The notes under the pieces were generated by a model, which ran no database searches, was not told where the DNA came from, and saw nothing but the letters and a program-made list of their open reading frames with translations. 43,764 nt of DNA, from the NCBI GenBank assembly GCA_022824265.1, contig JAJEAG010000047.1:1-43764 (forward strand), given 5' to 3'. Origin of the DNA: Candidatus Poribacteria bacterium (GTDB taxonomy: Bacteria > Poribacteria > WGA-4E > WGA-3G). Below are positions 39,692 to 43,764 of the stretch, piece after piece. The position numbers and the translations under genes were made by a program. Numbering within the stretch: the stretch's first letter is position 1; each line of letters opens with the position of its first letter.

Positions 39692-40040
39692 ATTCTTCTC
39701 CTTGAAAAAACTATTTACTGTTGATGTTTTACAGATATATTATCACATTCCTGGATTATACAGACTCAATTTATACAAATCTGAATTATTAGTGTAAATA
39801 ATTTTCGACTTAATTACAGATTTTCTTTTACAATTTATTCATCACTTTTTCATACCAATTTACACTTTCATACACAAATTAAACCTACAATATGACACGT
39901 AGAAAATCGGACATTCGTTAAGTAATTGCGTAGTTGATAAATTTTCAATGTACTAAAATATGTCTAAGTATATAATCTGGAAATTCATTACTACAACTTT
40001 TATTCTCATGATTTATATATTCTATGGAGGAATTAAAATA
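39692..40040. other. Divergent intergenic region
   Basis: About 350 nt of AT-rich DNA between the SMP-30 and PhoX-like genes. TATAAT boxes occur on both strands (one at 39971-39976 on plus) but no clean -35 partner was found. No convincing ORF or hairpin. Confidence 0.45.
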
Positions 40041-42458
40041 GTGTATCAACAAATGAAGTTTTCAACATTCTTCTTAATTGTAGCAGTCACATTGCTTTCT
40101 GCCTTTAATGTTTCTGCACAGGTAATTCAAGGAGTCAGCAGTTCAGAAACACCATATATTGTACCAGTAGCACCGGGTGTACAAACATGGTCTATCTTAA
40201 CAGTTGGCGATGATGTAGGTGGTTATCGTTTGGTCGGGATACCGGATGGTACAGGTGCTTATAACAACGGTAACGGCACATTTACGTGGTTGGTTAACCA
40301 CGAACTTCGTTCCACGCAAGGAGTGCCAAGAGCACATAGCACTACAGAAGGTGGTGCTTTTGTTTCAAAATGGATCGTAAATGGATTAACCGGGAATTCA
40401 CAAACTATGTTGGAAGTACAATCTGGTGAAGACTTGATTCAACTCACAGCATTTTGGAATTCTGATACAAATACATACAATGAGCCTGCAAAAGGGGCAG
40501 TTTTTAATCGTTTCTGTTCCTCTGATTTACCTGCAATGGACGCATTTTACAACCATGAGACAGGAAATGGTTATGCAGGTAGAATCTATATGAATGGTGA
40601 AGAAACACGTGAAGGACGTGCATTTGCCCATATTGTTGATGGAGCAAGTGCAGGAGTAACCTATGAGTTACCTTATTTTGGTAAATCTGCATGGGAAAAT
40701 GTAGTCGCTCATCCAAATACTGGAGACCAAACACTGGTGATCGGAATTGACGATTCATCACCAGGACAAATATATGTCTACATAGGAACAAAAACCGATG
40801 AAGGAAATGATGCGGAGAAAGCAGGATTAGTGCATGGACAACTTTACGGTGTCGTGGTTGATGGTAATCCTGCGGAAGAACGTGAACTGGGAATACTGAC
40901 AGGTACACGCTTCTCTCTCCACCATTTTGAAAATGTTGCAGCTATGAGTGGTGCAGAATTGGAATCTGTAAGTGATGATGCGCAAGTAACTCGGTGGCTT
41001 CGTCCAGAAGATGGTGTATGGGATCCAAATAATCATTCTGATTTCTACTTTGTAACCACAGACCGTTTTGACCAAACACAGGATGGTCTCGGGGATACTA
41101 TCGGTCGTAGTCGTTTATATAGATTGCGTTTCGACAATGTAATGAATCCACTTCAAGGTGGTATTGTGTATCAGATGTCTGATGGAACTATGGGTGTTAT
41201 GTTTGACAACATGACAATGGATAACTATGGAAACATCCTAATTCAGGAAGATCCAGGTGGTTCTCCGAGAACCGCTAAAATTTGGCAGTATAGTACACGA
41301 AATAGCACGTTAAAAATCATCGCTGAACACGATCCTGCCCGATTCGGTAGCCTAAATTCGGATGCAGTAGAACCGTTTACAACAAACGAAGAGTCTTCAG
41401 GTATCATTGATGCAACCGAAGTTCTTGGGGCAGGATGGTTTTTGCTTAATGTTCAAGCACATTATAGCCATGAGGATCCGGAACTTGTACAAGGTGGACA
41501 ACTGGTAGCACTTTTCAACCCGGATAGTGCAGCTGAAGGTGTAGTAGCAGAACATTCCGATTATGTATTTTTCAAGGAATTAAATGCAGGTCTAAATATG
41601 GTCAGTTTGCCATTGAAACCTGTTGCGCAATATACTGCTCGTTCTTTAATGGATGAAATCGGGGCATCTGTCGTAATAAAATTAGATGAATCTTCAAATC
41701 GCTTTGTCGGGTTCACTGCTATGAATGATGGTGACGGATTTGCAATTGAAGGTGGTAGCGGTTACATTGTTAATGTATCTGAGGCAAAAGTCGTATCGTT
41801 TGTTGGCGGCGCATGGCAAAACTCAGTACCTATCCATTCTGCACCTTCAGTTCTAAATTCAAAGGATGCATGGGCATTTATCCTTTCTGCTGATGTTTCT
41901 TCATTAGATATTGGCAAAATAACTGTCCAAAATTCTCGTATAGGTGATGTTCAAACAATGACGGCAACTGACTCACATGGAAATATGCAAGCAGTTTGGG
42001 CTGATCTCAACCGTCAATCTGTAGCCGCTGTGGGTGATGTATTGGAAATCCACGTTTTCAGTGATGAAGGACAGTTAGTCGGTGTCTTACATCATGAAGT
42101 TACACCGCAAGATATTAACAGGGCATTTACACACCTGAATTTAGATATAGAAATGATGAAACCAACGCGTACCGCTTTGTTCACAAACTATCCAAACCCC
42201 TTCAATCCAGAAACATGGATGCCGTATCAATTGGGTGAAGGCACAAACGTTGTGTTCCGTATCTACAATTCGTCTGGACATTTAGTCAGAAATTTAGATC
42301 TCGGATTCAAAAACAGCGGTTTTTATCTCAACAGAGATCAAGCTGCATACTGGGATGGTCGCAACAATGCAGGTGAAAAAATGGCAAGTGGTGTATATTT
42401 CTATCAACTTAATGCGGGGAAATATACTTCTACGCGAAGGCTTGTAATTGTGAAATAA
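40041..42458 (+). CDS. Secreted PhoX-like (DUF839-type) protein with FlgD-like C-terminal domain
   Basis: An 805-aa exported protein. I place the start at the GTG at 40041, with GGAGG 10 nt upstream; the ATG at 40053 is next best and an ATG at 39960 lacks support. A signal peptide (core TFFLIVAVTLLSA) ends N-V-S-A. The body (FTWLVNHELRST, GNGYAGRIYMNGEE and RTAKIWQYSTRNS) resembles the PhoX/DUF839 beta-propeller of bacterial phosphatases; catalytic residues were not confirmed. The C-terminus (YPNPFNPETWMPYQLGEG, then AAYWDGRNNAGEKMASGVYFYQL) is a FlgD-Ig-like domain of the kind used for type IX-style sorting or surface display. Confidence 0.75.
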   Translation: MYQQMKFSTFFLIVAVTLLSAFNVSAQVIQGVSSSETPYIVPVAPGVQTWSILTVGDDVGGYRLVGIPDGTGAYNNGNGTFTWLVNHELRSTQGVPRAHSTTEGGAFVSKWIVNGLTGNSQTMLEVQSGEDLIQLTAFWNSDTNTYNEPAKGAVFNRFCSSDLPAMDAFYNHETGNGYAGRIYMNGEETREGRAFAHIVDGASAGVTYELPYFGKSAWENVVAHPNTGDQTLVIGIDDSSPGQIYVYIGTKTDEGNDAEKAGLVHGQLYGVVVDGNPAEERELGILTGTRFSLHHFENVAAMSGAELESVSDDAQVTRWLRPEDGVWDPNNHSDFYFVTTDRFDQTQDGLGDTIGRSRLYRLRFDNVMNPLQGGIVYQMSDGTMGVMFDNMTMDNYGNILIQEDPGGSPRTAKIWQYSTRNSTLKIIAEHDPARFGSLNSDAVEPFTTNEESSGIIDATEVLGAGWFLLNVQAHYSHEDPELVQGGQLVALFNPDSAAEGVVAEHSDYVFFKELNAGLNMVSLPLKPVAQYTARSLMDEIGASVVIKLDESSNRFVGFTAMNDGDGFAIEGGSGYIVNVSEAKVVSFVGGAWQNSVPIHSAPSVLNSKDAWAFILSADVSSLDIGKITVQNSRIGDVQTMTATDSHGNMQAVWADLNRQSVAAVGDVLEIHVFSDEGQLVGVLHHEVTPQDINRAFTHLNLDIEMMKPTRTALFTNYPNPFNPETWMPYQLGEGTNVVFRIYNSSGHLVRNLDLGFKNSGFYLNRDQAAYWDGRNNAGEKMASGVYFYQLNAGKYTSTRRLVIVK

Positions 42459-42538: not shown

Positions 42539-42614
42539 ATTATTCTATATTCAAATGTAGCAGAAAATGATATAATCACATAAACCGATACAGTTATAGT
42601 GAATTATCAATCTT

Positions 42615-42658
42615 CGGTGTCAAGACCCCGTTGCTTTAGTTCGGAGATGTAGACACCG
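42615..42658 (+). other. Hairpin resembling an IS200/IS605 end or reRNA tail
   Basis: CGGTGTC (42615-42621) pairs GACACCG (42652-42658) around an inner ACCCCG...CGGAG segment with a GCTTTAGT loop. The 3'-terminal hairpin of TnpB guide RNAs often has a CCCCG-GCTTTAG-CGGGG form. Here it lies upstream of a tnpB gene rather than downstream, so it may be a left-end structure or a remnant of an older element. Confidence 0.35.
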
Positions 42659-42699
42659 CTAAGTTCCTTGTCGTATCAAAAAACTTGACTTTTACGTGT

Positions 42700-43764
42700 A
42701 TTTTTAGTATGATATGTTCAGCATTGTCGCGGTGGGTTCTACCTCTTGCTTGAGAGTGCCACCGCACCATTTAGAAATGGTATGACAACGTGAAAGGAAC
42801 TGACAATGCGCACCTACAAATACAAGATACAGAACCATAAGCGTAATCGTCTTATGCAAAAAGACTTGCATATCATTGCACATGTCCACAACCATTTTGT
42901 TGCGTTGTGGCAACGCCACTACAGGATATATGGAGAATGCGAAGGCTACAAGCGACCGAGTGCGTTTCGGATGATCAAACATCTGACGAAACTGAAACGT
43001 CTTGAGAAATACCAACACTGGACTATCCCCTATTCTTGGGTGTTGCAAGAGTGTATCCAACGCATTGACAGAGGTTGGCAAAACTTTTTTGAAGGTAGAG
43101 CCAAGCGTCCACCAAAGTTTAGAAGTAGACATAAATACAAGTCCATGACGTTTGATGGTAGCCAAGTCAAAATAGAAACTATTGAGAAAGAAAATGGATG
43201 TCCTGTTGCGAAAATCCGTATCAATAGAAGATGGTATCGTTTCTGGTATAGCCGACCGATTGAAGGCAACATCAAAAGGGTTACCGTCAAGAAAGATTTT
43301 GTAGGGGATTGGTATATCACGCTCACAACAGATGCACAAGTCCTTGAACTCGCACCTAAGACTAGTAGGACAGCAGGGTTTGACTTTGGGCTCAAGCACT
43401 TTCTCACCTGTTCGGATGGCACGAAATATCAATCGCCAGAGTTCTATAAATCTGCTTCTAAACTGGTCAAGCGCGCAAGCCGTGCGTTATCTCGGAAGCA
43501 GAAAGGCAGTAATAATCGCAACCGCGCAAGAAAAGATTTGGCACGTGTGCATCTGAAAGTCAACAGACAACGCGAAGATCATCATTGGAAACTCGCACTT
43601 GAACTTGTCGGAGAGTTTGATGTCTGCTACTTTGAAGACCTCAACCTTGAAGGCATGAAACGCCTTTGGGGTAGAAAGGTATCCGATTACGCATTCGGAG
43701 ACTTCATGCAGAAAATCAAGTGGCAAGCACAAAAACGAGGCAAGCACGTTGCGCAGATTGACCG
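42700..43764 (+). mobile_element. IS200/IS605-family element with TnpB, right end outside window
   Basis: Hairpins at 42729-42765 (GCGGTGG with CCACCGC) and 42766-42781 (ACCATTT with AAATGGT) precede the TnpB gene and could be left-end palindromes. The right end and guide-RNA region lie beyond the window. No TnpA transposase is seen here, so the element may be non-autonomous. The left boundary is approximate. Confidence 0.55.
42806..43764 (+). CDS. tnpB: TnpB RNA-guided nuclease of IS200/IS605 family (3' truncated by window)
   Basis: At least 319 codons are open, with no stop before the window end. The N-terminus is basic (MRTYKYKIQNHKRNRL) with the usual OrfB/TnpB start. RuvC-I Asp is D193 in GFDFGLKHFL and RuvC-II Glu is E277 in CYFEDLNLEGM. 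The RuvC-III Asp and zinc finger lie beyond the window. AAGGAAC precedes the ATG by 6-7 nt. TnpB is a guide-RNA-directed DNA nuclease, ancestor-like to Cas12, that keeps the element in place. Reading frames on the opposite strand over this gene are shadows. Confidence 0.93.
   Translation, partial: MRTYKYKIQNHKRNRLMQKDLHIIAHVHNHFVALWQRHYRIYGECEGYKRPSAFRMIKHLTKLKRLEKYQHWTIPYSWVLQECIQRIDRGWQNFFEGRAKRPPKFRSRHKYKSMTFDGSQVKIETIEKENGCPVAKIRINRRWYRFWYSRPIEGNIKRVTVKKDFVGDWYITLTTDAQVLELAPKTSRTAGFDFGLKHFLTCSDGTKYQSPEFYKSASKLVKRASRALSRKQKGSNNRNRARKDLARVHLKVNRQREDHHWKLALELVGEFDVCYFEDLNLEGMKRLWGRKVSDYAFGDFMQKIKWQAQKRGKHVAQID

Follow-up and report, generated by a model that had tools for sequence, protein, structure and literature searches.

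Conserved pseudoknotted leaders in front of Poribacteria tnpB genes as candidate two-state translational switches

The stretch of DNA analysed here (the window, 43,764 nucleotides) is the whole of contig C83 of a 4.45-Mb Poribacteria genome assembled in 100 contigs. At its 3' edge lies a forward-strand tnpB gene (42806–43764) that is cut by the contig end. As the earlier note had stated, the open frame (42806–43762) leaves the contig with no stop before its end, and its product matches OrfB_IS605 (Pfam PF01385, E = 5.9e-23). The last 141 bases of contig C21 are identical to the window end, which is probably an assembly k-mer overlap, and C21 carries the remainder of tnpB, its stop and then the right end GAATCCCCATGCTTTAGCAGGGGGAGTATGTCAA. 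The two pieces of the gene were searched separately against Pfam, and the C-terminal domain PF07282 was found on C21 (E = 1.1e-20). The 35 relatives of this tnpB in named records are all from Poribacteria. The gene 5' of the element (39960–42458) encodes a PhoX-like protein with a FlgD_ig-like C-terminus.

The boundaries of the element are given by an empty site in a related genome, where both flanks are joined without it (GAATTAT|AACAAT, 93% identity over 1,060 bases); a difference of 16 bases is found a few bases past the junction. From this site it follows that C83 and C21 are neighbours, and that the element begins at 42608, directly after the target TTAT (42604–42607), which is not duplicated. 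The element thus comprises 1,157 bp in the window (42608–43764) and 268 bp on C21, for a total of 1,425 bp. TTAT is found 5' of the left end in 17 of 18 relatives, and the remaining one (L087) has TTTAA. The right flank, on the C21 side (~487–617 of the joined query), belongs to an interspersed repeat, matched many times throughout the genus, and the element is inserted at the edge of it. With OrfB_IS605 and the C-terminal domain, hairpins at both ends and a target that is not duplicated, its boundary, copies and relatives identify it as a tnpB-only IS200/IS605-type element. Hairpins at both ends of such elements are needed for transposition according to the available text of PMC7290912, and are likewise given as a family feature in that of PMC8612924; the former describes the two as alike in IS608, although not in every member of the family. 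The only Y1 transposase match in the same assembly is weak (G000:C37:49704–49955, L029) and appears by eye to be RAYT-like, not TnpA. Y1 matches occur in 53 of the 57 genomes of the family, and the left-end palindrome may be bound by a Y1 TnpA acting in trans.

The left-end hairpin (42615–42658) starts 7 nt inside the 5' boundary. Its outer arms, CGGTGTC (42615–42621) and GACACCG (42652–42658), are complementary at 7/7 positions, lie 30 nt apart and enclose a short inner stem (CCCCG...CGGAG). Folded alone as DNA the hairpin is only mildly special (−7.5 kcal/mol against −4.1 ± 1.71 for shuffled sequences, with 8 of 200 shuffles folding as well or better), and conservation carries its case. The stretch matches 15 other places in its own genome, and a related query, through its left-end portion, adds 8 more, so that the left end occurs at about two dozen places, and also 5' of tnpB in relatives. 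By eye, the two sides of the outer stem change together in relatives (GGTGTC/GACACC, GTTTTC/GAAAAC, CCGCTAC/GTAGCGG). Among the 19 relatives tested, taken from 28 with upstream sequence, a sequence pattern picked out the left form in 18 and the right one in 17; the nineteenth, L062, has a short internal repeat within the left form (by eye). For a right-end piece that was cut within the right hairpin, 33 of 200 shuffles folded as well, a score that carries no information on that hairpin.

The earlier note had likened this hairpin to the tail of a TnpB guide RNA, and the resemblance is real: the cores of the left ACCCCGTTGCTTTAGTTCGGAGATGT and the right ATCCCCATGCTTTAGCAGGGGGAGTATGTCAA resemble each other. 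Its suggestion of a left end is borne out by the position inside the empty-site boundary, the multiple copies and this likeness. The right end that it expected past the contig end was found on C21 together with a guide-RNA-like scaffold, and is not unrelated to the hairpin, which itself is not unique in the genome. The hairpin is therefore the ordinary left end of an IS200/IS605-type element. Neither it nor the leader described below is placed as a guide-RNA scaffold, both lying 5' of tnpB; a guide RNA at the left end was considered and ruled out, the scaffold-like sequence being at the right end on C21.

More interesting than the hairpin is a structured RNA between it and the gene, which the earlier note overlooked. 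This leader of ~90 nt (42720–42809) consists of a helix junction with a pseudoknot. It is preceded by a promoter-like site, read from the sequence as TTGACT (42685–42690) and TATGAT (42708–42713) separated by 17 nt; a −10-like hexamer (at least 5 of 6 positions) is found there in 102 of 115 leaders, compared to 20 of 115 in shuffles. Arm A (GCATTGTC, 42721–42728) forms the 5' strand of P1 and is followed by P2 (42729–42735/42759–42765), inside which lies P3 (42743–42747/42752–42756). The pseudoknot joins the P2/P3 bulge, where its 5' strand TTCTA is located (42737–42741; also seen in relatives), to the loop of P4 (42766–42769/42778–42781), which contains the 3' strand TAGAA (42772–42776). The first partner of A is B (GACAACGT, 42784–42791), with one mismatch in the window copy. 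A Shine-Dalgarno-like AAAGGAA (42793–42799, read from the sequence) separates B from its repeat B' (GACAATGC, 42802–42809), which lies over the ATG and is complementary to A at 8/8 positions. Arm A can thus pair with either B or B'.

Five short copies without tnpB occur in the same genome (L012, L013, L048, L049 and L050, on C81, C87, C65, C82 and C68). L012, L048 and L050 keep the left end, the promoter-like site and the right-end scaffold, while L013 and L049 were seen in part; these copies may supply guide RNAs in trans. In a tnpB-less element of ~550 bp (L026 on C53, L027 on C10) the left end is similar but the right end GGGGAGCGGTCAT is not, and the leader is matched weakly (model R2, E = 0.056 and 0.0033). 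Another TnpB family (L015–L019, L021 and L022, on C5, C99, C47, C46, C33, C54 and C37) also has a similar left end, and there the leader appears by eye to be replaced by a variable number of short tandem repeats around TTACAATGCTAAAGGCT. Four tnpB copies in OY282383.1 (L082, L083, L085, L086) carry the same-looking ~40-nt insert where the frame ends, as though disrupted copies had gone on spreading. Near the right end of another tnpB (L088, 4152–4252) there is a sub-threshold match to the Rfam HgcC RNA (22.3 bits, gathering 50).

The leaders fall into three groups, which were aligned apart because joint alignments (A1, A2) mis-registered helices between them. Four group alignments were used: A3 (13 rows), A4, A6 (41 distinct rows, drawn from the 42 of 56 group III references that share one length) and A7 (19 rows, from 19 of 24 group II or unassigned references). 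All share P1 (A:B), P2, P3, P4 and the pseudoknot. The main structure is paired in 95.7% of cells in A3 (85.7% when shuffled), 91.0% in A4 with the pseudoknot left out (80.1%), 97.5% in A6 (84.6%) and 96.2% in A7 (80.4%). The observed percentage was reached by 0 of 500 shuffles in each of the four, and the covariation score by 0 of 500 in A3, A6 and A7; these fractions are not probabilities, since the alignment rows are related. Sliding the partners by 1–3 columns leaves fewer than 50% of cells paired. In A6 and A7 every cell of the pseudoknot is paired (100%), and across the 41 distinct rows of A6 both bases vary in five of the seven pairs. The weak spots are P4 in A3 (80% of cells) and P1 in A4 (81%), where group III rows are out of register. 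The count of further pair types for the main structure was reached by 188 (A3), 104 (A4) and 5 (A6) of 500 shuffles.

The alternative pairing A:B' shows a similar pattern. It is paired in 96.5% of cells in A3, 94.1% in A6 and 88.1% in A7 (79.4, 81.9 and 67.2% when shuffled), and neither this percentage nor the covariation score was reached in 500 shuffles of any of the three. Fewer than 50% of cells pair when it is slid, except in A3 at +3 (65.4%, four pairs). Of 500 shuffles, 10, 2 and 8 had at least as many pairs with changes in both strands, and 213, 34 and 13 at least as many further pair types (A3, A6 and A7, respectively).

The pairings were also assessed by swapping A arms between leaders within groups. 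Of 135 leaders kept, P2 was found in 131, and 115 were distinct; 20 of the 35 tnpB-relative loci entered this set. L101, L114, L139, L143 and L151 (contig edge, out of register) and L105, which is the window itself, were dropped before counting. The second A helix, A:B', scored at least 6 in 92 of 115 leaders with their own strands and in 161 of 1670 swapped combinations, and the pseudoknot scored at least 5 in 113 of 115 and 262 of 1670. Both were absent from the structure of the search models, in which the B' columns were modelled as sequence. The corresponding figure for the first A helix (113 of 115 against 509 of 1670, score at least 6) is biased because P1 was part of those models. Among the 115 leaders, arm A has 49 distinct 8-nt cores. 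Taken together, covariation supports the predicted helices, the pseudoknot and the pairing of A with either partner.

Under strict filters (E ≤ 0.001), model R1 finds the leader in 35 of 84 genomes of the phylum and 2 of 21 genera, and model R2 in at least 56 of 84 genomes and at least 3 of 21 genera. A single genome contains up to 34 leader matches among those listed. Outside the phylum, the leader was not found by one exact pattern in viral contigs or by blastn of the window leader against plasmids and phages. A TnpB-like sequence lies downstream of 97 of the 115 distinct leaders, a share that is not unbiased because the loci came from the top of match lists; 15 have none and 3 are too short to tell. 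Two of the 15 (L118, L123) look by eye like truncated elements. The other 13 front non-TnpB genes, and by eye the left-end hairpin is not seen in the 250 nt upstream of them. The second A helix is kept in all 13, compared to 14 of 173 swapped combinations.

Genes near these 13 leaders were inspected within about 1.5 kb for a subset of open reading frames, several of them some hundred bases away. They include GIY-YIG genes (L144, L147), a DNA methylase (L137), an MvaI/BcnI restriction enzyme with a methylase (L138), a DDE transposase (L136), a trypsin-like peptidase (L202) and a sub-cutoff HTH match (L155). A ThsB-like TIR gene of the Thoeris family is located about 1 kb past L130 and L188, preceded at L188 by a DUF4268/PDC-S11 candidate defence gene. 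No match was obtained for the tested proteins of L134, L148, L153 and L200. Nuclease, methylase, transposase or defence-like genes are thus near 7 of the 13, a raw count taken without a background rate. In a comparison of 82 TnpB proteins, those of L121 (type I leader) and L187 (type III) are 87.8% identical, and leader types I and III each serve TnpBs that are about 20–25% identical, so leader type does not track TnpB lineage. Since widely divergent TnpBs, and also some other genes (several of them nuclease, restriction-modification or defence-like), can stand behind leaders of a single type, the leader seems to behave as an exchangeable expression module, which would probably keep potentially harmful products low or conditional.

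The position of B' suggests how such a module could act. Among TnpB leaders, the ATG lies inside B' in 27 of 31 cases in group I and in 11 of 13 in group II. In group III, B' overlaps B and sits upstream of the ATG, within about 12 nt of the start codon in 48 of 55 cases under a lenient count that allows four start codons. Two exclusive conserved pairings are therefore present, one of them at the start codon, with the group III start codon just downstream. In constrained folds without the pseudoknot, the two pairings come out close in energy: the mean for A:B minus that for A:B' is +0.55, −1.66 and −2.24 kcal/mol in groups I, II and III (28, 21 and 49 leaders), with a standard deviation of about 3, and the two states lie within 3 kcal/mol of each other in 17 of 28, 14 of 21 and 30 of 49 leaders. 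In the window copy, where B carries its mismatch, A:B' is favoured (−33.0 against −26.4 kcal/mol).

Because B' holds or adjoins the start codon in all three groups, the two pairings can be read as ON and OFF states. The mRNA would start behind the promoter-like site, its first ~90 nt being the pseudoknotted leader. In the ON state, pairing of A to B would close the junction, with the start codon and its Shine-Dalgarno-like stretch left accessible. In the OFF state, pairing of A to B' would instead hide the start codon itself in groups I and II, and the bases immediately 5' of it in group III. Control of translation by the two states is something we infer, as would be any choice of one of them as the default. 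On this basis the leader is probably a two-state translational switch carried behind the left end of an IS200/IS605 element, with covariation behind the structure and the placement of B' suggesting the switching. However, A, B and B' are also retained at several non-TnpB loci where B' contains no ATG (L144, L147, L188, L200), which means that covering the start codon cannot be its sole role.

The same observation bears on an unlikely alternative, in which TnpB or a regulator of the host docks on the leader, recognises B and B' as two copies of its site and, once bound, blocks translation. Retention of B' at all 13 non-TnpB loci, even without an ATG, would be expected of such a site, and a duplicated site suits cooperative binding. 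However, the many different A cores show that the sequence of A, B and B' is not fixed, although a protein could read shape, and the leader also precedes genes without TnpB. It is improbable that the leader is a small-molecule riboswitch whose ligand-bound state is A:B. The closing helix shared with a start-codon partner, the pseudoknotted junction and the occurrence before several unrelated genes are all in keeping with one, but by eye few unpaired bases are common to the groups, the downstream genes point to no common metabolite and no Rfam class matches: searches of release 15 on the leader's own strand gave no match at E ≤ 1 or, in a second search, at E ≤ 5. Rfam NrrF overlaps the L155 leader on the opposite strand at chance level (22.6 bits, gathering 60). 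Still less probable is that the repeats act as DNA, as repressor operators or transposition sites. A, B and B' are indeed inverted or direct copies of one sequence beside a promoter-like site, but P2, P3, P4 and the pseudoknot covary too, and G.U cells outnumber A.C cells by 116 to 31, mainly from A6 (89 to 10, against 10 to 12 in A3 and 17 to 9 in A7), with an undecided 11 to 7 for A:B' alone across the alignments. Finally, the other option in the earlier note, by which a second, decayed element is nested here and has its right end in the hairpin, possibly together with its own guide RNA, is scarcely credible despite the likeness of the cores, since the empty site has one clean boundary and the same hairpin form precedes the tnpB genes of relatives.

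Such a leader was not found in the literature searched, which consisted mostly of papers open without subscription. On balance, and with some hesitation, we favour the view that these two-state switches form an undescribed class of pseudoknotted leaders that travels with Poribacteria TnpB transposons, has been swapped among unrelated families of TnpB and provides other genes for DNA cutting or defence (GIY-YIG, a restriction-modification pair, a Thoeris-like TIR) with a safety switch. To our knowledge, little is known of how the dosage of the TnpB nuclease is controlled inside its transposon, and a conserved leader that is separable from the protein makes this question directly testable. The 115 distinct natural variants could be used for the study of RNA switching. 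The occurrence of the leader before restriction, homing-endonuclease-like and TIR genes hints at a regulatory part common to mobile elements and defence.

In translational riboswitches and other mRNA leaders with alternative pairings, one arm of the closing helix is shared by two exclusive partners, one of them at the start codon, and the same arrangement is found here. Unlike in those leaders, the partner strand here clearly exists in two copies, the groups have few unpaired bases in common and the leader sits on mobile nuclease genes. In ISPpu9, expression of the transposase is regulated via the structure of the mRNA 5'-UTR and also by two small RNAs, according to the available text of PMC8450116; the present leader would be similar in using the 5'-UTR structure as a regulator, but ISPpu9 is a different IS and involves the small RNAs. 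The element as a whole resembles the tnpB-only IS200/IS605 elements and TnpB guide RNAs covered by the accessible portion of PMC8612924 in its TnpB domains, its hairpins at both ends, its insertion beside a tetranucleotide without target duplication and its scaffold-like right end, which overlaps the 3' end of tnpB. It differs from the IS200/IS605 elements described there in that this copy has no tnpA and a long two-part left hairpin, and in that a structured leader sits between the left end and tnpB.
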